Source: Comamonadaceae bacterium (lineage in GTDB: Bacteria; Pseudomonadota; Gammaproteobacteria; Burkholderiales; Burkholderiaceae_C). From it: a stretch of 42,852 nt of DNA. The number at the start of each line of letters is the position of its first letter. The first letter of the stretch is position 1. The stretch spans positions 1 through 42,852 of the forward strand of contig CANFHZ010000010.1 of assembly GCA_947446885.1 (NCBI GenBank), given 5' to 3'. The notes beneath the pieces are model-generated. The model was not told the origin of the DNA. It saw nothing but the letters and a program-made list of their open reading frames with translations, and made no database searches. Shown one piece after another: positions 1,480 through 37,333 of the stretch. The position numbers and the translations under genes are program-made.

Positions 1480-2940
1480 TCAAGGCGTACTCAAACCCGC
1501 CGCAACATCCCGAAACGCTGCCAGCGCCGCCTCCAGGTGCTCGATGATTTCCTGTTGCAGCACATCGGGCGGGGGCAGATCTTCCAGGTTGTCGAGGCTG
1601 TTGTCCTTGAGCCAAAAAATGTCCAGGCTGGCTTTGTCGCGGGCCATCAATTCGGCGTAGCTGAAGTACTTGAAGCGATCAGTCGCCTTGCGCTCGTGGC
1701 GGTTGTCGGGGTTGTAACAAGCCACGAAGTCCTGCAAATCTTCATGCCGCATGGGCCGGGTTTTGAGCGTGAAGTGCTGGTTGGTGCGTAGGTCGTAAAA
1801 CCACACGCCTTGGGTGTGCGTCTGGCCGTCCTTGGGTTTGGCATCAAAAAACACCACATTGGCCTTGACACCTTGCGCATAAAAAATGCCCGTGGGCAGA
1901 CGCAGCACGGTGTGGACGTCACAGGTTTCAAGCAACTTGCGGCGGATTTTTTCGCCCGCTCCGCCTTCAAACAACACGTTGTCGGGCAGCACTACCGCAG
2001 CCTTGCCCGTGGTCTTGAGCATGCTGACGATGTGCTGCAAAAAGTTGAGCTGCTTGTTGGTCGTGGTTTCCCAAAAGTCCTGCCGCTCATAGACCAGCGC
2101 GTCTTTGTCTTCTTCGCCTTCAGCGTTGGTAAAGCTCATGCTGCTTTTCTTGCCAAAGGGCGGGTTGGCCAGCACGTAGTCCACTTTTAGCGCAGGCTCG
2201 CTAATCAGCGCGTCAGAGCGCTCCACCAAGGGTGTTCCGTCCAGCTCGCCAATGTTGTGCAAAAACAGGTTCATCAAACACATTCGCCGGGTGCTGGCCA
2301 CGATTTCGTTACCGTAGAAAGTCTTGTCACGCAAAAACGCTAACTGCCTCTTGTTGAGTTGGTTTTCCGTGCGGGACAGCCAGTTGTGGGCGCTCAGAAA
2401 AAAACCGCCCGTGCCACAGGCCGGGTCGGCAATCGTCTTCATCGGCTCTGGGCGCATGCAGGTGACCATGGCGTCGATCAGCACACGCGGCGTGAAGTAC
2501 TGGCCGGCACCGCTTTTGGTGTCTTCGGCATTCTTTTGCAGAAGGCCCTCGTACATGTCGCCCTTGATGTCGGTGCCCAGGCTGATCCACTGCTCGCCCG
2601 CGATCAACTGCACCAAGCGGTAGAGCTTGGCCGGGTCCTGAATCTTGTTTTCCGCCTTGAAAAAAATGGCACCCAACATGCCCGGTTCTTTGGCGAGTCG
2701 CTTGAGAATCTTCAGGTAGTGCGCCTCCAGCGGCTCGCCCACCTTTGATGTCAGGCTGAGCCAGTCGTAGCCGGCGGGCACCTGGGTATTACGGTTGTAG
2801 GGCGGCTCGGCGTATTCATGGGCGAACTTGAGAAACAGCAGGTAGGTGACTTGCTCCAGATAATCGCCATAGCCCACGCCGTCGTCGCGCAGGGTATGGC
2901 AGAAATTCCAGATTTTTTGGACGAGAGTGGAAGCGTTCAT
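1480..2940 (-). CDS. hsdM: Type I restriction-modification system DNA methyltransferase subunit (HsdM)
   Basis: A 486-residue N6-adenine methyltransferase subunit. It has the HsdM N-terminal helical domain (about 1-130, opening MNASTLVQKIWNFCHTLRDD), the SAM-binding motif I DPACGTGGF (172-180) and the catalytic motif IV NPPF (259-262). With HsdS it forms the M2S1 methylase that marks host sites and, with HsdR, the restriction complex. The ATG at 2940 matches the usual HsdM start. An in-frame GTG at 2970 would add ten residues and is a weaker choice. Unusually, hsdM is the last gene of the island and is separated from hsdS by three other genes. A 347-bp-distant neighbour it is not: the AlbA_2 gene ends only 135 bp upstream. 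Confidence 0.93.
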   Translation of the reverse strand: MNASTLVQKIWNFCHTLRDDGVGYGDYLEQVTYLLFLKFAHEYAEPPYNRNTQVPAGYDWLSLTSKVGEPLEAHYLKILKRLAKEPGMLGAIFFKAENKIQDPAKLYRLVQLIAGEQWISLGTDIKGDMYEGLLQKNAEDTKSGAGQYFTPRVLIDAMVTCMRPEPMKTIADPACGTGGFFLSAHNWLSRTENQLNKRQLAFLRDKTFYGNEIVASTRRMCLMNLFLHNIGELDGTPLVERSDALISEPALKVDYVLANPPFGKKSSMSFTNAEGEEDKDALVYERQDFWETTTNKQLNFLQHIVSMLKTTGKAAVVLPDNVLFEGGAGEKIRRKLLETCDVHTVLRLPTGIFYAQGVKANVVFFDAKPKDGQTHTQGVWFYDLRTNQHFTLKTRPMRHEDLQDFVACYNPDNRHERKATDRFKYFSYAELMARDKASLDIFWLKDNSLDNLEDLPPPDVLQQEIIEHLEAALAAFRDVAAGLSTP

Positions 2941-3075
2941 GGTGTCAGTTGTCTGCCGTTTATCTGCCACATCATCAAGCCTGGCAGAAATTAATCTTAG
3001 TTAAATCAATGACTTAAGGGGATTCGGGTTAGGCCAGTCGCAAAAAACGGTGGGATATACCGATAAGTGGCAGAT
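2941..3075. promoter_or_regulatory. hsdM upstream region with repeated TCTGCCA inverted motifs
   Basis: This 135-bp gap contains the 9-mer ATCTGCCAC at 2962-2970 and its exact reverse complement GTGGCAGAT at 3067-3075, near its two ends. A further TGGCAGA at 2982-2988 forms a 7-bp hairpin with 2963-2969. The middle (2991-3020) is AT-rich and could hold a promoter private to hsdM. No confident -35/-10 pair was found. An operator role is inference. Confidence 0.35.
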
Positions 3076-4728
3076 TCATTTCTCGGGGCCTTCATCAAAC
3101 CAGTAACGCCGCCCCCGGCTCAGCCCCTCAAACCGCAGACTGCCTTGTTCCACCAGATCGTCAATCGCACGCTTAAGCGTGCGGTACGGCACCTCAGAAC
3201 CAACGCGGCGATTGATGTCGCCAGAGGCAGCGCCTGGATAACGGCGCAAATCCTCCACGATCAACGCACGCAGCCGGTGGGGCTCAATACGCTTGAGCGT
3301 CGTTTTGCCATCCAGCCCCTGGCCTTTGAGTACCGCCGGGTTCACAAAATAGCGCATGGCCTGCGTCTTACCCGCCGATTGCACCAGCTCTAAGTCCAGC
3401 AACCTGCCCAACCAAGAGGCTCTCAGTTCTTCGGGTGTCTCAAGTTCGAGTTGGCTGGCCAACTCGCGTGCCGTCATGCCTTCGCTAGCGGCCAACAGCC
3501 CCAAGGCGATTCGCTCACGCTGCCGCAATTGATAGCGCGCATCCGCTTCCGCCATCATCCGAACCACCTCAGGGCGCTTCACGCGGCGTTCAATGGTGAC
3601 GGACACCGAATCGATGCCTTCTTTGGGCCGGGGAATCGGCCTTCCCTGCGACAGCTGAACGTCGTACATCAAGTCAAAGCCCGTGCCCTCTTTTTCCATG
3701 AGCTTCAGGTCATGAAACAGCGTTGCCAAACGGTCATTTCGGCGTTGGCTTGCGTGCAGGATGGTCTGCGGGGTGACACCCAAGGGCAGGCGCCCGGGAT
3801 TGACCACTTCAAACCGATCGGGATGCAGGTTCAAAAACAGGTCGCCCCGCTGGGTATAAGGGCGATGCACCAGCGCATTGACCAGCAACTCACGCACCAC
3901 CCTTGGGTCGTAGGCCGGCAGCTTGTTGCGGTAAAGGCCATCGGCCAGCTCGTAGCTCTCATGGAAATCAGCAACCTCTTGCCAGATCGCATCAATCAAC
4001 TCCACGGGCGACAAGGTGAAATCGTCCCACAGCCATTTGTTGACCTTTGGCCCCATTTCATCGAACTTGATGGCTTGCACCACCGGGGCAGTGCCTAAGC
4101 GCCCCCGATCCATGGCACTGCCAATCATCAGCACCCCCAAATGCGTCAGCCTTGTGCCGTCCGCCAGGCCGTAATGCGCCAAAAGTTCGACGTCACTCTT
4201 TTCTTTGACCGACGCCTTCACCCGGTCCGAACTGCGAAGTTTTGCAAGCAGGCTTTCGCGGCTTTGGGCATTTGCATTCACAAGCGGCACCTCCAGCGTG
4301 GTCAAGGTTTCCCAGGGCACGCCAGGCCGGTCCGTCATCAGGCGAAATACATCGTCCCCCACCACCGGCCTGCATGTGTCGCCCACGCGTTGAAAGTAAC
4401 GACCGTCGGCTGTTGACGCAGGCCCCACTGAGCGCGCGATGTTGAGGACTATGAACTCGCCGCCATTGCTGGCAATGATCATTTCTGGGGCGACGTCCAC
4501 ATTCACAGTTAACTCGCCAATCCGCTTGCGCAAGCGAGTTAGCAAGTCCCGATCTATACGCTGGTCTGCAGGTGGCAAGCGCTGGCCATCCTCAATGCCA
4601 ATGTGCAAACTCCCGCCTGCAGCATTGGCAAAGCATACGCATTCCGCCGCCACATCCGACCAAGCGGTTTTATTGCCAGTGACAACGCGCAGGGATTTTT
4701 GATCGACCCCCTGGTTTTCAAGGCTCAT
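3076..4728 (-). CDS. AlbA_2 (Schlafen-like) N-terminal domain / RecG-C-like ATP-binding protein
   Basis: A 550-residue protein of the family often labelled ATP-binding protein or putative transcriptional regulator. Residues about 10-125 form an AlbA_2/Schlafen-type domain with its hallmark FANAAGGSLHIGIEDG (33-48). Residues about 276-330 form a HATPase_c_4 (RecG C-terminal-like) domain with RELLVNALVHRPY (279-291) and NPGRLP (310-315). The C-terminal 150 residues look like tandem winged helices. Related proteins occur in defence islands and as regulators; whether this one binds nucleic acid, cuts it or senses damage is not known. It has the strongest ribosome binding site in the island, AAGGAGGT at 4732-4739, three bases before the ATG. 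Gaps of 146 bp upstream and 135 bp downstream make it look like a separately acquired cassette. Confidence 0.75.
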   Translation of the reverse strand: MSLENQGVDQKSLRVVTGNKTAWSDVAAECVCFANAAGGSLHIGIEDGQRLPPADQRIDRDLLTRLRKRIGELTVNVDVAPEMIIASNGGEFIVLNIARSVGPASTADGRYFQRVGDTCRPVVGDDVFRLMTDRPGVPWETLTTLEVPLVNANAQSRESLLAKLRSSDRVKASVKEKSDVELLAHYGLADGTRLTHLGVLMIGSAMDRGRLGTAPVVQAIKFDEMGPKVNKWLWDDFTLSPVELIDAIWQEVADFHESYELADGLYRNKLPAYDPRVVRELLVNALVHRPYTQRGDLFLNLHPDRFEVVNPGRLPLGVTPQTILHASQRRNDRLATLFHDLKLMEKEGTGFDLMYDVQLSQGRPIPRPKEGIDSVSVTIERRVKRPEVVRMMAEADARYQLRQRERIALGLLAASEGMTARELASQLELETPEELRASWLGRLLDLELVQSAGKTQAMRYFVNPAVLKGQGLDGKTTLKRIEPHRLRALIVEDLRRYPGAASGDINRRVGSEVPYRTLKRAIDDLVEQGSLRFEGLSRGRRYWFDEGPEK

Positions 4729-4874
4729 GCGACCTCCTTCGCCCGGAGACCACCCGTCGCAATTTCACAACTTGCAAATGCAAAAATCGGTACCCTGGGC
4801 GCGGAGTCCTTTGCCCTGCTGTTAGCGGGTGGCGACAGTGTCTAGCTTTTCTAAAAATTCGGAATATGCACATG
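4729..4874. promoter_or_regulatory. Gap between the PtuB-like and AlbA_2 genes; near-consensus ribosome binding site
   Basis: The minus strand carries AAGGAGGT (plus-strand ACCTCCTT at 4732-4739) immediately before the AlbA_2 start. This fixes the start at 4728. The rest of the 146-bp gap is AT-richer near 4845-4870 and could contain a promoter. I see no clear terminator hairpin and no ORF in it. Confidence 0.55.
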
Positions 4875-5675
4875 TCAGGCCATCATTAGTTTCTCAATCC
4901 AAGGGTGATCAGCATGCCGCTGCCCCTTCAACAGAAAGATCATTTCACCGCTGTAAGGCGCTGTTCGGTCAATGGCACGTCGAATCTTTTTTGCGCTAGC
5001 AGTGAAGTATTCCTTCATCCCCTTACCGAAAAATTCTTTTGCCTGTTCAATGTCAGCCATCAGTCTTACGGCTGCCATATGACGTTGTTTGCAAGTCGGC
5101 TCGTAATCAAGGTGATAAACGTTTATTGAAACTTCGGCCCGATGGATTTCTGTTAAATCCTGACTGGCTGGGCATGGCTTGCCGTTTTCACGCCGACAAC
5201 CGACAAGCTCCCAGTCATGGAGCTCACAAGGGTCAAGCAGAGTTGGCGCTTCCTGGCTCAAGTGGCCCGGCCCATAAAGTCGCGCGGCCTCATCAAGAAG
5301 CGGGAACCTATCAGCCTTGCCTCCGACCGTCCCATTCAGCACATCCTTGCGACGGCTGTTGCAAAAGGTACAGGCATATCGATAGTTCAAGTGATTAAAT
5401 GCAAGCCAACGATACCCAGTGTGCGGTTGAGTCGCCTCAGCCACCCGCCCTTTAGGGCGAAAGTGGTCAACGGCGTTATCAGCACGGTCGACGGGCGATT
5501 CGCAGTACCAGCACTTCTTGTCGGGAAATAAAGCTGAAAGCCCGTCCTTGAGTTCACGCCAGATATTGCCGTGATCGTTAGGATCAGCACCGTTTGAAAC
5601 TGCGGTAACAGCAGTAGCGGCACGCTCCAACCAATCGTCCGGCAACACAAGATCATCTTGAGCGATGTATCTCAC
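4875..5675 (-). CDS. ptuB: PtuB-like HNH endonuclease (Septu-type / retron Ec78-type effector)
   Basis: A 266-residue protein with a zinc-ribbon HNH nuclease core: CxxC at 55-58 (CWYC), the histidine motif AVDHFRPKGRV (68-78) and NHLNYRYACTFCNSRRKD (94-111) with the second CxxC. This matches the HNH partner of Septu systems and of retron Ec78. Its start (5675) overlaps the stop of the upstream ATPase gene by 4 bp (ATGA), as expected for the PtuA-PtuB pair. In known Septu systems PtuA holds PtuB as a complex that degrades nucleic acid during phage infection. No reverse transcriptase is in the window, so a retron is unlikely. The specific PtuB name is from motif reading and context only. Confidence 0.72.
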   Translation of the reverse strand: MRYIAQDDLVLPDDWLERAATAVTAVSNGADPNDHGNIWRELKDGLSALFPDKKCWYCESPVDRADNAVDHFRPKGRVAEATQPHTGYRWLAFNHLNYRYACTFCNSRRKDVLNGTVGGKADRFPLLDEAARLYGPGHLSQEAPTLLDPCELHDWELVGCRRENGKPCPASQDLTEIHRAEVSINVYHLDYEPTCKQRHMAAVRLMADIEQAKEFFGKGMKEYFTASAKKIRRAIDRTAPYSGEMIFLLKGQRHADHPWIEKLMMA

Positions 5676-7402
5676 GGCGCAGACCTGCCCAAGGCTTTGC
5701 TCTCATCAGCAATCAATTTCTCAATGAGCTCAGCAGCCAGTTCTTCGCGATCCTTGCGCGTCAGCGCGACAGTCTTTGCGGCGATCTCCAGTGGGTCCAC
5801 ATCCGCAAGGCGAGTTTTTAACAATTCATTTCGCAGCCGAAGGTAGCGCGAGAATTCATCGTCGGGGTGAAAGAACCTGAAGCCAAGTCGATTTAGTTCG
5901 TCGTTTACCTTGTCCAAAGCTTCCTGCTCTAAAGTTGACAAAACAGCCTTAGCGCCAAGCGCACGCTGCTTTTCCAGTAAATGCTGTGTAGGGGCATCCA
6001 ACGAAGAACTTATGCCAAACATATCGCTGGTCACGATTGCCGCATACCCCATGCCACGCGGTGCCATCTCGGGGTAGCAAGCAACAATATTTCGCTGCGC
6101 ATCTTTTTGGACGACGCGCAAAACCTGTACTTGCTCGCGATCAAGTTCCGCAATAGCGAGCGGATTATGGGTGGTCAAAAGTATGTGGCTTGTCTCTTGC
6201 TGCGTCTTGCCACTGGCAGTGAATTGCTTCAAATATTTGATGTAATCCACGCTCCAACGTGGGTTCAGGTGAGTATCTGGTTCGTCTAGCAAAAACAAAC
6301 TTTCCTCCTCTGCCGTAAAGCAGAGTAAACCCAACACAGTCAATAGCTGTTGTTCGCCCTCGCTAAGCTCACGAAACGTCACACTGCCGTCGTTCTTCTT
6401 CAAGCGCACGCGGATGCGTACTTCTTCAATCAGTTCCGAGACATAGGTACTCTCTAGGTCGCGGAAGAAATCCGCCGGAGCTTGGTCGCCCACCAGGCTT
6501 CGCAGGGCAACAAGGTCTTTGACGTAAAGGTATTTGAACTCGAGCTTTTCCTTGTTCCAAATCGACGTAGCCACGGTGCGACTGATGGTCACCGGGGCCA
6601 AAGCAATCTCATAAAGTCGAGCTAAAAAATCACGCACCACGCCACGGGCATTCCAGAATCGCGGGTCACCATCGGAAGCTTTGGAATGCCAAGGCGGTTC
6701 CCGCAACACGAACAAAACGGATTCAACGCCTTCCTCGGGATCAAGGCCGAGGTGATCGTCTAGGAATTTGCGCACCACCGCCGACTCTTGAATCAAAAAT
6801 GCCAGCAAAACAAACTGGCTGTGCACTGGCATTGCATAAAACAGACGCTTACGTCCAGGGTCGGTGCCCTTGCGCAGTTTGCTGTCGTAGCTCTGCAAGT
6901 AGGGAAGAAAGATTTCCTGCATACGCCGGCTCTCGCCCGAGTAATAGCTAAAAACATAGCTGGGCAGGTGAAGCTTCTCTTCTGCAAAAAAGGGGAATAA
7001 TTTGATGCGATTACCCCTTAACGCTGAAAACTGGGGTTCCCCCTCAATAAACGGCGCTAGAGTGCCGACGCCCTTCGCTTGCGTTTCAGTAGCGACGTGG
7101 ATGATGAAGGGCTCTTTGCTGCGATCAGGGTCTGCGTCAATGTGAATGAATTTTAGGCTGTCGCCAGTCCCCATGCGATATTCAAGCTGGAATGCAAATT
7201 TGGGAACGCGATTCTTAGCTATCAGGTCGCGAAAGATAATCGCCAGCGCTTCGAGCACATTGGACTTGCCGGAGCCGTTCCAGCCGATTAAAACCGTGAC
7301 CCAGTGATCCTGATCGAAGTCAATGGTGACGTTCTTCAGGTTCTTGAACTGGTGAGAGTCGCTATTCTTTTCGCTGCCGATTGTGAGTTTGTCAAGGCGC
7401 AT
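5672..7402 (-). CDS. ptuA: PtuA-like AAA/ABC-type ATPase (Septu-type)
   Basis: A 576-residue SMC/ABC-like ATPase. Walker A is GWNGSGKSN (40-48), the signature motif LSEGEQQ is at 346-352, Walker B LFLLDEPDTHLNP at 369-381, and the switch histidine lies in TTHNPL (410-415). The order and the long insertion between Walker A and the signature are typical of PtuA and OLD/RecF-like defence ATPases. The C-terminal 130 residues are helical and charged and lack an obvious TOPRIM motif, which argues against a plain OLD nuclease. It follows hsdS with only 2 bp between stop and start, so it is co-transcribed with the restriction genes, and overlaps the HNH gene by 4 bp. Base composition is lower in GC than the core genes. 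Confidence 0.75.
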   Translation of the reverse strand: MRLDKLTIGSEKNSDSHQFKNLKNVTIDFDQDHWVTVLIGWNGSGKSNVLEALAIIFRDLIAKNRVPKFAFQLEYRMGTGDSLKFIHIDADPDRSKEPFIIHVATETQAKGVGTLAPFIEGEPQFSALRGNRIKLFPFFAEEKLHLPSYVFSYYSGESRRMQEIFLPYLQSYDSKLRKGTDPGRKRLFYAMPVHSQFVLLAFLIQESAVVRKFLDDHLGLDPEEGVESVLFVLREPPWHSKASDGDPRFWNARGVVRDFLARLYEIALAPVTISRTVATSIWNKEKLEFKYLYVKDLVALRSLVGDQAPADFFRDLESTYVSELIEEVRIRVRLKKNDGSVTFRELSEGEQQLLTVLGLLCFTAEEESLFLLDEPDTHLNPRWSVDYIKYLKQFTASGKTQQETSHILLTTHNPLAIAELDREQVQVLRVVQKDAQRNIVACYPEMAPRGMGYAAIVTSDMFGISSSLDAPTQHLLEKQRALGAKAVLSTLEQEALDKVNDELNRLGFRFFHPDDEFSRYLRLRNELLKTRLADVDPLEIAAKTVALTRKDREELAAELIEKLIADESKALGRSAP

Positions 7403-7404
7403 GA

Positions 7405-9123
7405 TCAGCCTTCCACCAGCTTCAGCTGGTCATGCGATTTGCGGCCTTGCTTGTCGGTGACGGCCTCGACCACCAAGCTATTCGCCTTGTGAAGATCGCG
7501 CAGCTCCGCGTAAAGCGCTTCCACTTGGTCTGTTTCTGCGCCGTCCTCTATACCGCAGCGCTGAAATGCATCTTGCGCCGAGATCCAGCCCTTCGCATCT
7601 GCAAGTACTTCTTTCATTTTTTTAGTCACAGGTGCGTTCTCCTTCTGTTGTTTGGACCTACGCGGTTTAGGAAGTTTTTCTTTATTTGCGCGCTCATTTC
7701 GAACCCTTGCCAGCAGCACGCTGGCGGGCTCGTCGTCCGGGTCTTGGGGAACCAGTTGGCCGGAGAAGGCGGCGCGCAGGATGTTTTGGCGTTGGGCGGC
7801 GGATTGTTTGAGGGAATGCGAAACCCATTTCACTTGTGCGTCCAACGCTGAAAGACCCTTTACTAACTCTGTAATCGCCGCCTCTTGCTCAATTAAGGGG
7901 GCTATGGGAACAGGTATCTTGGAAATTTTCCCCACACTGAGGGTGTAAAGACCGCTTGTAGTGGCTGCAAGCTTTGTCAATTTATCGATACCACCCAAGG
8001 AATTGAGCCAAGTCTCTACAAACTGACTCGCCAACGCTATCGGGCGAACTCGTATAAGGTGGTTTTGATGGACTGCGTTCAATATGGAACCGTCCCAAAT
8101 TGCGCAGCGGCCAATTTCAGTAAGGCTCCCATTTCCTTCAACAATCAACACATCACCTTGGATTAATGCAAGGCGCTCAAGTTCACCAGGGAAGAGTTCG
8201 ATTTGATGAACTTCATCCAAGTTGAGTTTTCCGCGTGCAACATTAGCAACTCGCAAGAATGGATACTTATTCAATACAGGTGCTCGTGACGGTTGTTTTT
8301 GTATCCCCCCTTGAATTTCTGATAACTGATCAACGCTCGCCCAAACCCACCCCGTCGGCAACTCTGGCAAGTCGTTGGTATCGGGCGACACCGGCTCGGG
8401 GTACTTCTTCTGCCAGTCTTTGGGCGGGGCTTTGCCTTGGGCTTCAAATTTGGCTCGTTGTTTGGCTTCCCAGCGGGCGCGGCGTTCTTGCAGGATGCGG
8501 GTGAGCAGTTGCGCGCCGGTTTCGGTGGGGGTGTTCTGGTCGCGCCATTCGGCGGTGAGGCTGCCGTCCACTGCGGCTTTGAGCAGGGACTGGCGGTACT
8601 GCGCTAGCTTGTTTTGTGCGGCTTTGAGTTCGGCTACGCCAGCGTCCAGGCCGGTGAGCAGTTCTTCGAGTTTTTGGACGATGCGGGTTTGTTCGGCGAG
8701 GGGCGGCAATTGAAATTTCAAAGCCGCCAAGACCACTGGATCAACGTGCGGAATCCCCACGCCCTTGGTTTGGCTGTTTAAAACACCGAATTGAGAAGAT
8801 ATGAAGTAATACAAATATCCGGGGATAACCGCGCCGGATCGCAATCTGGACAGTGTTGAACCAATAAATCCACTCGCACCCCGCCCGGCGAGGCCAGCCC
8901 GTGCCCCGTCCCACACCAAAAGGGTGTCATCCGGCTCGCAAACGGGAACATCTTGCGCAGGTGCGTACTCAGCGATCACCTGGGTTTCAAACGCTGCGAT
9001 GTTTATGTAGGCAATGGTTCTGCTGTCGCTTCGCGGACCAAGCCCTGTCGGCTTCCTGCCCTTTTGGAGTTGTACAAGTTCGCCGAATTTGGTGTCCACC
9101 CACCCAACAGGTAATTCGCTCAC
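7405..9123 (-). CDS. hsdS: Type I restriction-modification specificity subunit (HsdS), with C-terminal extension
   Basis: A 572-residue HsdS with two target-recognition domains, each opened by an LPxGW motif (LPVGWVDTKFGELV near residue 4 and LPTGWVWASVDQLSEIQGG near 255). They are followed by conserved helical spacers with PPLAEQTRIVQKLEELL (about 137-153) and APLIEQEAAITELV (about 404-417). The two domains read the two halves of a bipartite asymmetric target. HsdS is usually about 400-460 residues. Here about 110 extra residues follow the second spacer (lysine-rich linker, then a small helical domain near 490-572 that could be a winged helix). The start overlaps the hsdR stop by 4 bp. The recognised sequence cannot be deduced. 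Confidence 0.92.
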   Translation of the reverse strand: MSELPVGWVDTKFGELVQLQKGRKPTGLGPRSDSRTIAYINIAAFETQVIAEYAPAQDVPVCEPDDTLLVWDGARAGLAGRGASGFIGSTLSRLRSGAVIPGYLYYFISSQFGVLNSQTKGVGIPHVDPVVLAALKFQLPPLAEQTRIVQKLEELLTGLDAGVAELKAAQNKLAQYRQSLLKAAVDGSLTAEWRDQNTPTETGAQLLTRILQERRARWEAKQRAKFEAQGKAPPKDWQKKYPEPVSPDTNDLPELPTGWVWASVDQLSEIQGGIQKQPSRAPVLNKYPFLRVANVARGKLNLDEVHQIELFPGELERLALIQGDVLIVEGNGSLTEIGRCAIWDGSILNAVHQNHLIRVRPIALASQFVETWLNSLGGIDKLTKLAATTSGLYTLSVGKISKIPVPIAPLIEQEAAITELVKGLSALDAQVKWVSHSLKQSAAQRQNILRAAFSGQLVPQDPDDEPASVLLARVRNERANKEKLPKPRRSKQQKENAPVTKKMKEVLADAKGWISAQDAFQRCGIEDGAETDQVEALYAELRDLHKANSLVVEAVTDKQGRKSHDQLKLVEG

Positions 9124-11897
9124 GCCACCAACTCCCGATTCATCTCTTCCATCAGCCCATCCAGCTGCCCGTCAAACACGCCCCAGGCTTTTTGCAGGCC
9201 GCCTTGGGCGGCCAGCGCGGCCAGGTCAAAGTCGCTGCGGTGGATGGCGCAAGAGCTGGCAATGTGGTCTTTCATCAGGCGCAGCCAGTCGGTTTGGTCC
9301 ACGCTGAAGGCTGTGCCGCGCTGGGCGTTGTGGCGGAATATCCATTCCTGAAAGCGCTTATCCACTTGGTCGCTGAAGGGTTTGAGCTCTGCGTCCAGGC
9401 CTATGGCAAAGCGCACCAGGGCCAGCAGGTCGGTGAGTTGCCTTTTGGTGCCCGCGCCTTTGACCTGGCCCGCCTGTACCCGCGCGTAGGCGCCCCATAG
9501 CTTTTCGGTGGTCAGCATGAGCGGCGGCCGGCCCAGGTGCGCGTGCAGGGCTTCGACCATGTCCAGGGTGATGTGCCTGCGCTGGTAGGGCTGCTGGTAG
9601 AAAAAGCGCAGCGCTTCGATTTCGTCTTTGTGCTGGGCGATGTAGCTGGCAAAGCTGTCAATGGTTGCCTTGGCCTGCGTCTCCGCCTGCGCGCTAAAGC
9701 CCGAAAAGGTGACCTGGTCCGGGTTGATGTGGTCTATGAGTTGTTCGCGCTCGCGTCGGGCGGCTTCGATTTCTTCACGCAGTTCGGGCTGGTCAAAGGG
9801 CGCGCACGCAAAGGCCACGCGCAGGGCGCGGGCGGCCTCGATTTCTTCGGGCAGCAAGGTGTCTGCGTTGCGGGTAATGCCTTGGGCTTGGGCTGTGGCC
9901 AGCGCGGCGGCATGGATGGCGTCGGGGTCCAGCGCGTTGATCAAGGCTTTGCCGAGTTCGGCCACCGGCACGCCACCCGCAGCTTTGGCGACGCGAGCCT
10001 GGGCTTTGTCGTCGAGCTGCTTACCCAGGCGCACCAGGCGGTTGGCGAGCGAGAGCACGGTGTCGTCGTCGCGCAGGCCTACGGCCACGGCTTCGAGCAA
10101 GCCTTTGAGCGGCACGCCGGGTTTCTTTTCCAGTGGGCGGCTGTCGGTTTTGAGGCTTTTCTCTACGCCCACGGCGTCAATCAACACAAAGCGCTCTTTG
10201 GCACCGGGGGCGCTTTGGCTCACTTTTTTCAGGCCGTCGGCGTCCAGGCTGCGCACCCCCCGGCCTTTCATTTGCTCGTAGTAGCCGCGTGAACGCACGT
10301 CGCGCATAAAGAGCAGCACCTCCAGCGGCTTGACGTCGGTGCCGGTGGCGATCATGTCCACGGTGACGGCGATGCGCGGGTTGTATTCGGTGCGAAAGTC
10401 TTTGAGCGCGCCTTCGGGGTCTTCGGCGTTGTAGGTGACTTTGCGGCAAAAGGCGTTGCCCTGGCCGTAGACCTCTCGCACCATTTGGATGATGTCGTCA
10501 GCGTGGCTGTCGGTCTTGGCAAAGATGAGGGTCTTGGGTGTTTCCTTGCGAGCGGGGAAAATGGTGGTTTCAACCGCACGCTTCATTTCGGCGACGACGC
10601 TGCGGATCTGGCTGGGGTTGACGACCGAGCGGTCGAGCTCTTTGCCGGTGTAGGCCGTGTCTTCTTCGGTTTCGGCCCAACGCCTCTGGCGGGTTTGCCG
10701 GTCGCGGTGGTCTACGTACTCACAGGCGGGCAAGACTTTGCCGTGTTGGGTGACGTCGGTCTCGATCTCATAAACGTCATAACCCACATTGACGCCGTCG
10801 GCCACGGATTGTTCGTAGCTGTATTCGGCGACGATGTTTTCGTCAAAAAAACCAAACGTGCGCTTGTCGGGGGTGGCGGTCAGGCCGATGAGGAAGGCAT
10901 CGAAGTAATCGAGCACCTGTTTCCATAGGTTGTAGATGCTGCGGTGGCATTCGTCGATGACGATGAAGTCAAAGGTCTCCACCGGCACGACCGGGTTGTA
11001 GCGCACCAGCTTGGCTTGTGTAGCGCCGGCTTGCAGGTTGCTTAATGAAATGTCTTCGGCGGTCTCGGCCAGGTGTTCATTGGCCAGGATCGCGTACATG
11101 CGCTGGATGGTGCTGATGCAGACCTGCGCCTGTGCGTCGATACGCGGGGAGTTGAGCCTCTGCACGTTGTACAGCTCGGTGAACTTGCGGCCGTCATCAG
11201 GCGGGGTGTAGGCGGCAAATTCCTGGTGGGCTTGAATGCCCAGGTTGCGCGTGTCCACCAAAAACAAAACCCGCTTGGCACCGCCAAACTTCAGCAGTCG
11301 GTAAACGGACGTGATGGCGGTGAAGGTTTTGCCAGAGCCCGTGGCCATGTGTACCAGGGCGCGGGGTTGGTTACGGGCCAGAGACGCCTCCAGGCCGGTG
11401 ACGGCGCTGACCTGGCAGTCGCGCAGTTTTTGCGCGGGCAAGGCGGGCAAGCCTTCAGCCAGTTTGCGGCGCAGGCTGGGCGGGTTGGCGTGCCAATCGG
11501 CCAAGGTCTCAGGCTTGAAGAAATGAAAGATTTCACGCGAGCGGGGCGCGGCGTCGGCGTTGTCGGTGAAACGGATCACCACGCCAGTGGCTTCAAACAA
11601 AAAGCGCAGCGGCGTGTTTTCGGTGCGCCATTTGAGCTTGGCGACGGCGTAGCGCCCTGTCTGCATTTCTACCGTGGTCAGACGTTCACCGGCGGTGTCG
11701 GGCTTGGCTTCAATCACTCCTACGGCCTGGCGGTTCACAAAGAGTACGTAGTCAGCCGGACCGGTGTCGGTGGGGTATTCGCGCACCGCCACACCCTGTG
11801 CCGCACCCAGATTGAGCTGCTTCATGTCTTGCAGCAGCCAGCCCGCTTGAACGAGCTTGCGGTCGATGTGCTGACGGGCTAGGGCCTCGGGGGTCAT
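9120..11897 (-). CDS. hsdR: Type I restriction endonuclease subunit R (HsdR, EcoEI-like)
   Basis: About 925 residues. The N-terminal nuclease domain has D49 in GPADYVLFV and the E-x-K pair 63-65 in VIEAK. The superfamily 2 helicase motor has Walker A MATGSGKT (184-191), DECH (315-318) and GLTATP (338-343), then a helicase C domain and an EcoEI-type C-terminal region. HsdR translocates DNA with ATP and cleaves at a distance when HsdS meets unmethylated targets. The ATG at 11897 aligns with family starts (MTPEALARQHIDRKL). However, the only good ribosome binding site, GGGGAGGG at 11952-11959, suits a GTG at 11945, and an ATG lies at 11951. The start is therefore uncertain by 16-18 codons. The gene is first in the island and divergent from the J-domain gene. 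Confidence 0.92.
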   Translation of the reverse strand: MTPEALARQHIDRKLVQAGWLLQDMKQLNLGAAQGVAVREYPTDTGPADYVLFVNRQAVGVIEAKPDTAGERLTTVEMQTGRYAVAKLKWRTENTPLRFLFEATGVVIRFTDNADAAPRSREIFHFFKPETLADWHANPPSLRRKLAEGLPALPAQKLRDCQVSAVTGLEASLARNQPRALVHMATGSGKTFTAITSVYRLLKFGGAKRVLFLVDTRNLGIQAHQEFAAYTPPDDGRKFTELYNVQRLNSPRIDAQAQVCISTIQRMYAILANEHLAETAEDISLSNLQAGATQAKLVRYNPVVPVETFDFIVIDECHRSIYNLWKQVLDYFDAFLIGLTATPDKRTFGFFDENIVAEYSYEQSVADGVNVGYDVYEIETDVTQHGKVLPACEYVDHRDRQTRQRRWAETEEDTAYTGKELDRSVVNPSQIRSVVAEMKRAVETTIFPARKETPKTLIFAKTDSHADDIIQMVREVYGQGNAFCRKVTYNAEDPEGALKDFRTEYNPRIAVTVDMIATGTDVKPLEVLLFMRDVRSRGYYEQMKGRGVRSLDADGLKKVSQSAPGAKERFVLIDAVGVEKSLKTDSRPLEKKPGVPLKGLLEAVAVGLRDDDTVLSLANRLVRLGKQLDDKAQARVAKAAGGVPVAELGKALINALDPDAIHAAALATAQAQGITRNADTLLPEEIEAARALRVAFACAPFDQPELREEIEAARREREQLIDHINPDQVTFSGFSAQAETQAKATIDSFASYIAQHKDEIEALRFFYQQPYQRRHITLDMVEALHAHLGRPPLMLTTEKLWGAYARVQAGQVKGAGTKRQLTDLLALVRFAIGLDAELKPFSDQVDKRFQEWIFRHNAQRGTAFSVDQTDWLRLMKDHIASSCAIHRSDFDLAALAAQGGLQKAWGVFDGQLDGLMEEMNRELVA

Positions 11898-11951
11898 CGG
11901 CCCCGACCGCCCATGCGGCGCACCGCAACCCAGACCGAAATACACATACAT

Positions 11952-35992: not shown

Positions 35993-37333
35993 CTATTGTC
36001 TTTTCGTGGTTATGCGATTGATCGTTATCTTGATCTCGCTGCCCGTATCCGAATTAATCTTCGCTGTGAGTAAGCGTAGAAGGGTCTGTTCGAAGTCGCT
36101 TTGCGAATTGGCTGACGAAGGCGTGCTCCGCTTTTGAAACTGCGCCAAAGCATACGCTCTATAAATTGGGTCAGAAAATGAATAAAGCCCCGAATTTGAG
36201 TCGTACCGTAAGATTCCGCCGTATTCTAAAGTGCACAATTTCGGCAACAGGTATTTTAGATTGGCTTCAGGATATTTCGTTTCGGCCCGCCTTATTCTGT
36301 TGTATATATCTGTTCTAGCTGCTCCACCTTCCGCTAGCGCGCTAACAGCTTCCAAAATTAGGCTTGCATTTTCGTATTGTGTTTTACGTCGTACCTTCAA
36401 TGCCTTATCAAATGCACTCTTAATACTGTCGGAGGCTTCATCCACATAAGTTTTTATGGCATGCTCGCAGTGCTCCTGAGTAAGAATAACGGGAGCCCCC
36501 CCCGCAGTCTCTGTAAGTCCCGCAGCGTTACACATATTGAGGCAAAGATGATGGCAAACGGAAGCCAACCCGTTGGAATGACGGACAACAAGACGCTTTA
36601 TTTCTGGGTTAAATTGCACGTTCAGTGCTGACTCACCTTTGAGAATAATTGAGGCTATCTCAGCCTCGGTCATTAAGGCAACATGAACTTCAGCAACGCG
36701 GTTACGCATTTCATGATCGTAATCAACCACTTGCCGTGCAGTATCTACAGCTCCGAGTGCGATAATTTTCAGTTCCGGATATTCATCTGACAAATCCATG
36801 AATACTTTCATAAGCTGGGAAAGCTGCGCCTTCTCCGTCTCATCGATTTTATGAAAGTCCTCTAAAACCCAGCATGCTTGTTGAGCGCCAAGAAACCGGC
36901 CTAACGCTTGAGCAGTTAACTGAGGTGGCAAGAGTCGCGTGTGCTTCTCGCTTTTATCAGTTGCCGAATTTAAGGAAATATTCGCCTGAATTGCGTTGTA
37001 AGATGCACCTATATCCACGCCAGAAGAGGTTTTAATAACGGCCTGTTTTTCCAGGGTATAAAAGGGGGATAACTGATCAAAAGCGTCGAGCAGAAGCTGT
37101 TCAAATTTCAGGCCTTTCATACACCTTGTAGTTATATGCCGTTCGTATAGCTGGGTGAGCTTATTTGCTAAAAGGGTAGTTTTTCCAGTGCCTGAGTGTC
37201 CGTAGACCACAATTTGCTTGCCGGGTGTAGTAAGCGAATTTACGAGCTTATTATTCACTGAATCGCGTTCGACAAAAGCTATACGTGCAGGTTTTGTTGG
37301 TGTAAATACATCTCGAGTTTGCGAAATTTCCAT
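35993..37333 (-). CDS. AAA+ ATPase (STAND/Orc-like) of unknown function
   Basis: 446 residues. Walker A is GHSGTGKTT (45-53), Walker B CWVLEDFHK (154-162), a sensor-like strand is IIALGAVDTARQ (190-201), and an arginine-finger candidate lies in HEMRNRV (207-213). Residues about 320-400 form a winged helix, as in Orc/Cdc6- and STAND-type ATPases. No nuclease, TIR, protease or membrane effector is fused, so an effector would have to be another gene: the 39-residue ORF or Fic protein downstream are the nearest. The gene is clearly poorer in GC than its neighbours and has no Shine-Dalgarno sequence, which points to horizontal acquisition. The family could not be named. Confidence 0.7.
   Translation of the reverse strand: MEISQTRDVFTPTKPARIAFVERDSVNNKLVNSLTTPGKQIVVYGHSGTGKTTLLANKLTQLYERHITTRCMKGLKFEQLLLDAFDQLSPFYTLEKQAVIKTSSGVDIGASYNAIQANISLNSATDKSEKHTRLLPPQLTAQALGRFLGAQQACWVLEDFHKIDETEKAQLSQLMKVFMDLSDEYPELKIIALGAVDTARQVVDYDHEMRNRVAEVHVALMTEAEIASIILKGESALNVQFNPEIKRLVVRHSNGLASVCHHLCLNMCNAAGLTETAGGAPVILTQEHCEHAIKTYVDEASDSIKSAFDKALKVRRKTQYENASLILEAVSALAEGGAARTDIYNRIRRAETKYPEANLKYLLPKLCTLEYGGILRYDSNSGLYSFSDPIYRAYALAQFQKRSTPSSANSQSDFEQTLLRLLTAKINSDTGSEIKITINRITTKRQ

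Follow-up and report, generated by a model that had tools for sequence, protein, structure and literature searches.

The window, a stretch of 42,852 nucleotides from a Comamonadaceae bacterium (assembly GCA_947446885.1, contig CANFHZ010000010.1, positions 1–42,852), carries a type I restriction–modification (RM) operon into which a Septu-type gene pair, ptuA and ptuB, is built. The genes lie on the minus strand in the order hsdR, hsdS, ptuA, ptuB, a SLFN_AlbA_2/HATPase_c_4 gene and hsdM and span positions 1480–11951, with hsdR and hsdS preceding ptuAB and hsdM following it. The restriction subunit HsdR (9120..11951; 943 residues as called) matches Pfam ResIII and EcoEI_R_C, the specificity subunit HsdS (7405..9123; 572 residues) matches Methylase_S and PADLOC PDLC03127 (410.7 bits) and the N6-adenine methyltransferase subunit HsdM (1480..2970) matches N6_Mtase, HsdM_N and PDLC03026 (646 bits) and has an NPPF motif; with all three subunits recognized by Pfam and PADLOC, the locus qualifies as a type I RM system. 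PtuA (5672..7402; 576 residues) is an ABC ATPase and PtuB (4875..5675; 266 residues) is an HNH nuclease. The hsdR–hsdS and ptuA–ptuB junctions are both 4 bp overlaps, and 2 bp separate hsdS from ptuA; 146 bp then lead from ptuB to the SLFN_AlbA_2 gene and 105 bp (as called) to hsdM. Homologues align from residue 19 of HsdR and from residue 11 of HsdM, and the starts are therefore probably at 11897 and 2940, respectively, the latter widening the last gap to 135 bp. Promoter-like and terminator-like sites in the window show no excess over shuffled sequences, and it is the spacing of the genes that suggests co-transcription. The last 76 residues of HsdS form a C-terminal tail (residues 497–572; 7408..7635) that was seen just where the nuclease pair is present, which suggests that this Septu-like nuclease may be switched on by the restriction enzyme acting as its sensor.

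PtuA matches the PADLOC profile PDLC00302 at 1088.5 bits across residues 1–573 as well as Pfam AAA_21 and AAA_15, and PtuB matches PDLC00330 at 323.7 bits. The Walker A motif (GWNGSGKSN, residues 40–48), the signature (LSEGEQQ, residues 346–352) and the Walker B motif (DEP, residues 373–375) are invariant in 25 aligned PtuA sequences; PtuB contains CWYC and VDHF motifs, and its His71 and Asn97 are invariant in all 25 aligned homologues. An earlier note on this DNA had described the two proteins as a Septu-like pair; both the profiles and the fold agree, and its gene coordinates, junctions and motifs are confirmed. It had passed over the other half of the operon, the SLFN_AlbA_2/HATPase_c_4 gene and hsdM. 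In the PtuB of five relatives (L017, L072, L075, L076 and L103) the HNH histidine and asparagine are kept and cysteines of the zinc-binding pattern are lost. By sequence, none of the solved structures is close to PtuA: a profile of the 25 sequences scores 58.2 bits against 9n69, 46.2 against Ec83, 40.4 against Ec78, 38.5 against Septu PtuA (8ee4) and 34.8 against AriA. An AlphaFold2 (AF2) model of PtuA built from 20 rows has a predicted local distance difference test score (pLDDT) of 76.7 and a predicted TM-score (pTM) of 0.75. The first 47 rows of a Foldseek search with this model are all retron I-A/Eco7/Ec78/Ec83 or Escherichia coli Septu complex entries, followed by AriA; the domain placement in the model is unreliable, because TM-scores by query reach just 0.26–0.34 in the 50 rows listed. 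Residues 19–155 of HsdR also match PDLC00302 (53.8 bits). Direct comparison finds no similarity between PtuA and HsdR, for which reason we suspect that this profile is mixed and may contain HsdR sequence, in which case it could inflate Septu counts.

The profile comparison with known PtuAB families, proposed in the earlier note, gave strong Septu matches and set the pair apart from retron Ec78, the NCBIfam Ec78 models scoring 48.2 bits for PtuA (cut-off 500) and 17.9 for PtuB (cut-off 150). No reverse transcriptase lies between hsdS and ptuA, as the note had stated, the gap being just 2 bp, and none was found among the Pfam-scanned operon genes (a genome-wide search for reverse transcriptase or msDNA was not made). 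AriA is the best non-PtuA PADLOC match of the ATPase (82.5 bits); AriB is absent from the best 25 of 31 PADLOC rows, and the partner matches PtuB/HNH profiles. Neither PrrC nor RloC appears in the Pfam results for PtuA (E ≤ 0.01) or among the best 25 of its 136 PADLOC rows.

A single PtuA scan of a species-genome collection returned 22 loci, in 21 of which ptuA stands directly behind hsdS; the remaining one (L024) is a decayed, rearranged fragment. The same junction in 21 of 22 loci exceeds chance, and the two-gene, free-standing layout of Septu is found neither in these 21 nor in the window. The 21 loci come from Alpha-, Beta- and Gammaproteobacteria and from one Bacteroidota genome (Siphonobacter). 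In 19 of them hsdS and ptuA are 1–5 bp apart or overlap by 4 bp; the spacing of L017 also fits if its homologous start is used (its longest frame gives a 65 bp overlap), and in L020 ptuA is split. The clade is rare: at E ≤ 1e-20 it was matched in two of the 369 genomes from the class, one of them that of the window. Twelve of 14 plasmid records with PtuA matches were examined (H13 and H14 were left out). Among the six with at least 36% identity, ptuA comes straight after hsdS in H1–H5, and H6 is a decayed copy within an hsd locus; in H9, H10 and H12 no hsd genes were seen in the stretch examined. ptuA also follows hsdS in three distant loci on viral contigs (L108–L110; 33–38% identity). In one more genome (G276, locus L103; 39%) the contig begins at ptuA and the upstream neighbour lies beyond its end, and the phage collection gave one match, at 24.5% identity.

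The HsdS proteins of ptuA loci are about 76 residues longer at the C-terminus than those of relatives. Pfam matches no family to the tail at E ≤ 0.01, and an alignment of 21 tails (A2) contains 17 invariant columns. We defined a near set of 27 records (the window, the 21 loci L003–L023, and L084, L085, L086, L092 and L115), 21 of which were used to build a tail profile; since L086 duplicates 16.2 kb of L085 at 100% identity, these are 26 distinct records, or 25 if the 98.2% identical island of L009 and L019 is counted once. The profile matches the HsdS of all 27 at 74–137 bits. The controls comprise every other HsdM match (26 in total) that reached E ≤ 1e-100 when 150 genomes from the family of the window were searched: the tail profile matches none of these 26 loci (HsdS was recognized in 21), and none contains PtuA (one 5-bit match, E = 27). 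The association of tail and ptuA has a Fisher probability of 4e-14, calculated on rows that are related by descent. A profile-free measure, the number of residues past the motif LVPQDxxDEPA, agrees, with 93–116 in 28 of 31 ptuA rows (three were not measurable) versus 24–35 in 13 distinct controls; three more control rows are duplicates and eight further controls, without the motif, are 407–489 residues long. Four of five plasmid HsdS proteins have an extension of 93–115 residues by this measure of length, which does not imply homology to the tail (L073 was not measurable), and the HsdS ends of L108–L110 show a pattern that resembles the tail by eye, again with no homology implied. With the tail alone as bait, viral contigs yielded L084–L086, 398 genomes of the phylum yielded one new strong match (G811) and the genus to which L005 belongs (298 genomes) yielded one new match (G898) besides the L005 and L023 records. 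PtuA adjoins the tail in all four distinct new loci (L084, L085, G811 and G898; it is broken in two in G811), in a search that is not blind to descent: a tail from one clade is expected to recover that clade. Three weak matches in the phylum sample (G775, G869 and G582; E = 3e-4 to 1e-3), next to which no PtuA was seen, were counted as chance, and the single match in plasmids (E = 1) lies inside a relaxase gene.

The AF2 model of the tail (pLDDT 84.6, pTM 0.68) consists of three helices and a hairpin and is predicted to be a winged helix. The Foldseek rows listed for it are mostly winged-helix proteins (TM-score by query up to 0.71), many of them transcription factors, with none at E ≤ 1e-3. 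One weak row is a cohesin head module (6qpq, E = 0.09). In cohesin, the winged helix of the kleisin binds the ABC ATPase head, which we take as an analogy for tail and PtuA and no more. We propose that HsdM–HsdS acts as the sensor, with PtuAB as an effector attached to it by the winged-helix tail of HsdS and with HsdR as a separate, optional effector; we consider the chances of this proposal to be evenly balanced. The many transcription factors among the structural matches, together with the winged-helix prediction itself, would also suit a DNA-binding or autoregulatory module that controls transcription of the operon or the target search and makes no contact with PtuA. Such a module would have no evident reason to be absent from hsd operons of the same kind that lack ptuA, or to be shared along with PtuA between otherwise different operons, and we regard this explanation as very unlikely.

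The sharing in question, which the proposed tie between tail and PtuA would account for, is seen on comparing two backbones, to which loci were assigned by hand: (i), mostly R-S-ptuA-ptuB-M (14 loci), and (ii), mostly M-S-ptuA-ptuB (nine loci). The mean identity between them is 40% for HsdM, 26% for HsdS without the tail (its last 76 residues) and 41% for PtuB, whereas the tail reaches 54% and PtuA 63%. Tail and PtuA are more alike than HsdM and HsdS, and both therefore look to be shared by two kinds of type I system. The C-terminal segment of PtuA (residues 521–576) behaves differently from its body: over 18 rows, its identity to the window is 27–55% where PtuB is 59–73% identical and 12–19% where PtuB is 28–33% identical, with two loci intermediate. 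This segment follows the type of PtuB and the tail does not, as if the C-terminus of PtuA faced PtuB and its body something else; an expectation that the tail would follow PtuB type was not borne out in the same 18 rows. A quite unlikely alternative is mere linkage, with an ordinary Septu pair using the hsd promoter and sharing no mechanism with the restriction enzyme. The stretch behind hsdS does look like a cargo slot: between hsdS and hsdM, relatives without ptuA carry Fic (L053 and L055), a YhcG nuclease (L054), SLFN_AlbA_2 (L059), a transposase integrase core (L057), a D12 methyltransferase (L067) or DUF3037 (L070), and free-standing AAA–HNH pairs are known (H9, H10 and H12). Linkage leaves unexplained, however, both the tail, with its absence from 26 of 26 control loci, and the finding that tail and PtuA are more similar between backbones than HsdM is.

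The constant neighbour of ptuA is HsdS; hsdR is optional. The order hsdR–hsdS–ptuA–ptuB, the recurrence of which had been put forward as a check, recurs in its hsdS–ptuA junction and varies in hsdR. Among the near records, hsdR is present in 17 (cut by contig ends in two, split in one), reduced to a deleted remnant in L004 and, by an HsdR profile of 36 rows, not found in the available sequence of nine (L005, L006, L007, L009, L016, L018, L019, L020 and L092; the sequence stops just behind ptuA in L007 and 2.3 kb behind it in L006). HsdR was therefore rejected as a necessary partner. Of the eight distant loci, L076 and L110 have hsdR; in the other six (L072–L075, L108 and L109) it was unseen, with 1.5 kb of upstream sequence in L108 and with the search of L072 extended to the final 10 kb of its circular record. 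The rest of the set stays intact: the NPPF motif is found in 26 of 26 HsdM sequences checked, the signature and Walker B motif in 26 of 26 PtuA sequences and Walker A in 25, the piece of the split L092 that was checked being without that part. The hsdR-less relatives, lacking one of the three subunits, are not type I RM systems as usually defined. As for HsdR supplied in trans, the NF008521 model matches genomes G888, G889 and G890 and the positive controls G895–G897 and does not match G811, G887 or G891–G894. HSDR_N misses the HsdR of G895 and G897, and only two genomes with hsdR-less loci (G811 and G892) have no match to either model. The window HsdR scores 355 bits against NF008521 (cut-off 729) and is its only match in its own genome at E ≤ 1e-10. 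Tyrosine integrases adjoin L009, L020 and L092, and a 10.1 kb integrase-M-S-ptuA-ptuB block without hsdR is 98.2% identical in Comamonas composti and Luteimonas padinae (L009 4525–14649 and L019 4526–14660), which we read as the mark of a recent transfer in which the set moved in one piece. Pfam assigned ten chosen open reading frames near hsdR-less loci to integrases, Fic, DUF4357, polymerases, a LysR regulator or nothing.

The fate of hsdR also bears on a guard of the PrrC type, in which PtuAB would fire when phage anti-restriction proteins disable the restriction enzyme and unmodified DNA alone would be no trigger. In the available text of PMC2610378, EcoprrI both associates physically with PrrC and silences it, and T4 Stp activates PrrC; PrrC170 was cloned as HsdR, HsdS, PrrC and HsdM, an order that, as listed, places its gene in the same slot behind HsdS as ptuA; and PARIS, the AriA of which is the best non-PtuA match of the ATPase in PADLOC, senses Ocr and cuts tRNA according to the accessible part of PMC12839542. 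The 17 near records that retain hsdR fit such a guard. In the other ten, HsdM and HsdS persist although hsdR, the part to be guarded, is gone or survives as a remnant, and we consider a guard alone unlikely. Given the same ten and the six distant loci, the suggestion in the earlier note that HsdR action is the trigger is not supported as a general rule.

Several observations weigh against the proposal that HsdM–HsdS directs PtuAB through the tail. Most near records do retain hsdR, every control locus is from one bacterial family and the tail could also bind DNA. In an HsdM tree of 46 rows the presence of ptuA changes eight times, five of them forced by well supported branches; only three independent contrasts rest on such branches, and the sign test is nonsignificant (p = 0.25–0.5); L017 was scored there as tail-less, the motif search having failed, although the tail profile matches it. 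The profile fails on all eight distant ptuA-linked HsdS proteins (best 14.2 bits, E = 0.11). Distances of PtuA correlate with those of the tail at 0.55 and with those of HsdM at 0.56 over both backbones, and within group (i) the values are a weak 0.40 and 0.27; we did not count this Mantel correlation as support for coevolution of tail and PtuA. Finally, the target cannot be deduced from homology, since the available portion of PMC11555353 reports that the PtuAB of retron-Eco4 probably spares tRNA and refers to a different Septu system that cuts nicked DNA.

In the mechanism that we propose, PtuA would grip the HsdS tail with its ATPase body and PtuB with its C-terminal segment, with PtuAB remaining silent as long as HsdM–HsdS is in its normal state. 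The model for such docking is PrrC on EcoprrI, and PrrC170 and PARIS are further precedents for the reading as a whole. A phage would put HsdM–HsdS in an abnormal state, either engaged at sites that lack modification or trapped by an anti-restriction protein that mimics DNA, whereupon PtuA would let PtuB cut nucleic acid (tRNA or DNA by precedent) and the infection would be aborted. Of the two triggers, unmodified DNA seems to us slightly the more likely, since loci that have lost hsdR retain both HsdM and HsdS. The precedents for the target are the tRNA-Tyr loss on expression of retron-Eco7 PtuAB, for which the excerpted text of PMC11555353 leaves direct cutting by PtuAB open, and Septu EcB88, which in the accessible text of PMC13096335 cleaves the variable loop of tRNA-Tyr and requires its Walker and HNH motifs. 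A bolder extension, which we hold tentatively and think somewhat doubtful, is that HsdM–HsdS–PtuA–PtuB without HsdR would be an immune system of its own: the methyltransferase would serve as self/non-self sensor, the tail would recruit the ABC ATPase, the Septu HNH nuclease would replace HsdR and the set would travel on small integrase islands, the hsdRSM–ptuAB operon of the window being its two-effector form.

The pair resembles type I Septu in its ABC ATPase, HNH nuclease, overlapping genes and PADLOC PtuA1/PtuB1 profiles and differs in belonging to an hsd operon with a tailed HsdS. It shares with PrrC–EcoprrI and PrrC170 the position of an ABC-ATPase toxin gene within a type I hsd locus and, unlike PrrC, which is an anticodon nuclease, is a two-gene ATPase–HNH pair, in loci from which hsdR is often missing. 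Retrons Ec78/Eco7 and Ec83 have the same effector fold and hold PtuAB in a complex with a sensor; the window pair differs in having no reverse transcriptase between hsdS and ptuA and, for Ec78, in the profile scores given above. MADS has HsdM-like, HsdS-like and AAA ATPase components, the likeness being weak: MAD2 (97.1 bits), MAD3 (40.8) and MAD5 (46.5), the three models compared, all fall under their NCBIfam cut-offs (720, 420 and 400). To our knowledge, MADS is without HsdR. PARIS and the OLD-ABC/HNH dyads in BREX are likewise OLD-ABC/nuclease pairs that act as backup effectors of modification systems, as described in the available text of PMC12839542, in which no HsdS tail is mentioned; PARIS has the TOPRIM AriB in place of an HNH partner, and the setting is BREX instead of type I hsd genes. 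ATPase–nuclease pairing in RM-like loci is already published. Among the papers listed for Septu or PtuA with type I RM, we saw neither an HsdS tail tied to PtuA nor an hsdR-less M-S-PtuAB set; an earlier report of hsdS-linked PtuAB in the ABC ATPase survey of Krishnan et al. (2020) is possible. Were our proposal correct, one class of PtuA would have a candidate sensor that can be identified, together with a stretch of about 76 residues as its candidate docking domain, and what switches Septu on would become a question for deletion experiments. A type I methyltransferase could then drive an effector besides HsdR, bringing Septu into the logic of PrrC and PARIS; surveys that tally Septu and type I RM separately would split one system, and hsdR-less loci taken for broken RM may be complete.

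NCBIfam already includes a 'restriction system-associated' AAA ATPase, TIGR04435, against which the window PtuA scores 143.7 bits, below the cut-off of 300; no paper using that family name came up. ATPases of this family, each with a partner gene, lie in hsd loci (plasmid records H7, H8 and H11; loci L077, L078 and L079). Their partners in L077–L079 match PADLOC PDC-M01B or PDC-M62B best and PtuB weakly. The HsdS that precedes the ATPase in L079 also has a long end (106 residues past LVPQDxxDEPA), and these loci may form a second family that is built alike.

The SLFN_AlbA_2/HATPase_c_4 gene of the window (3076..4728; 550 residues, identified by Pfam) is inconstant among relatives. Genes of this type are also found in L010, L021, L024, L057, L059 and L060, placed before hsdR, behind hsdS or before hsdM, and constitute another mobile accessory gene of hsd operons. 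A Pfam scan of ten other open reading frames in the window matched ferrochelatase, RibBA, an aminotransferase, DnaE and an AAA_16 protein, the last a protein of 446 residues (35996–37333) with a borderline match to nSTAND1.

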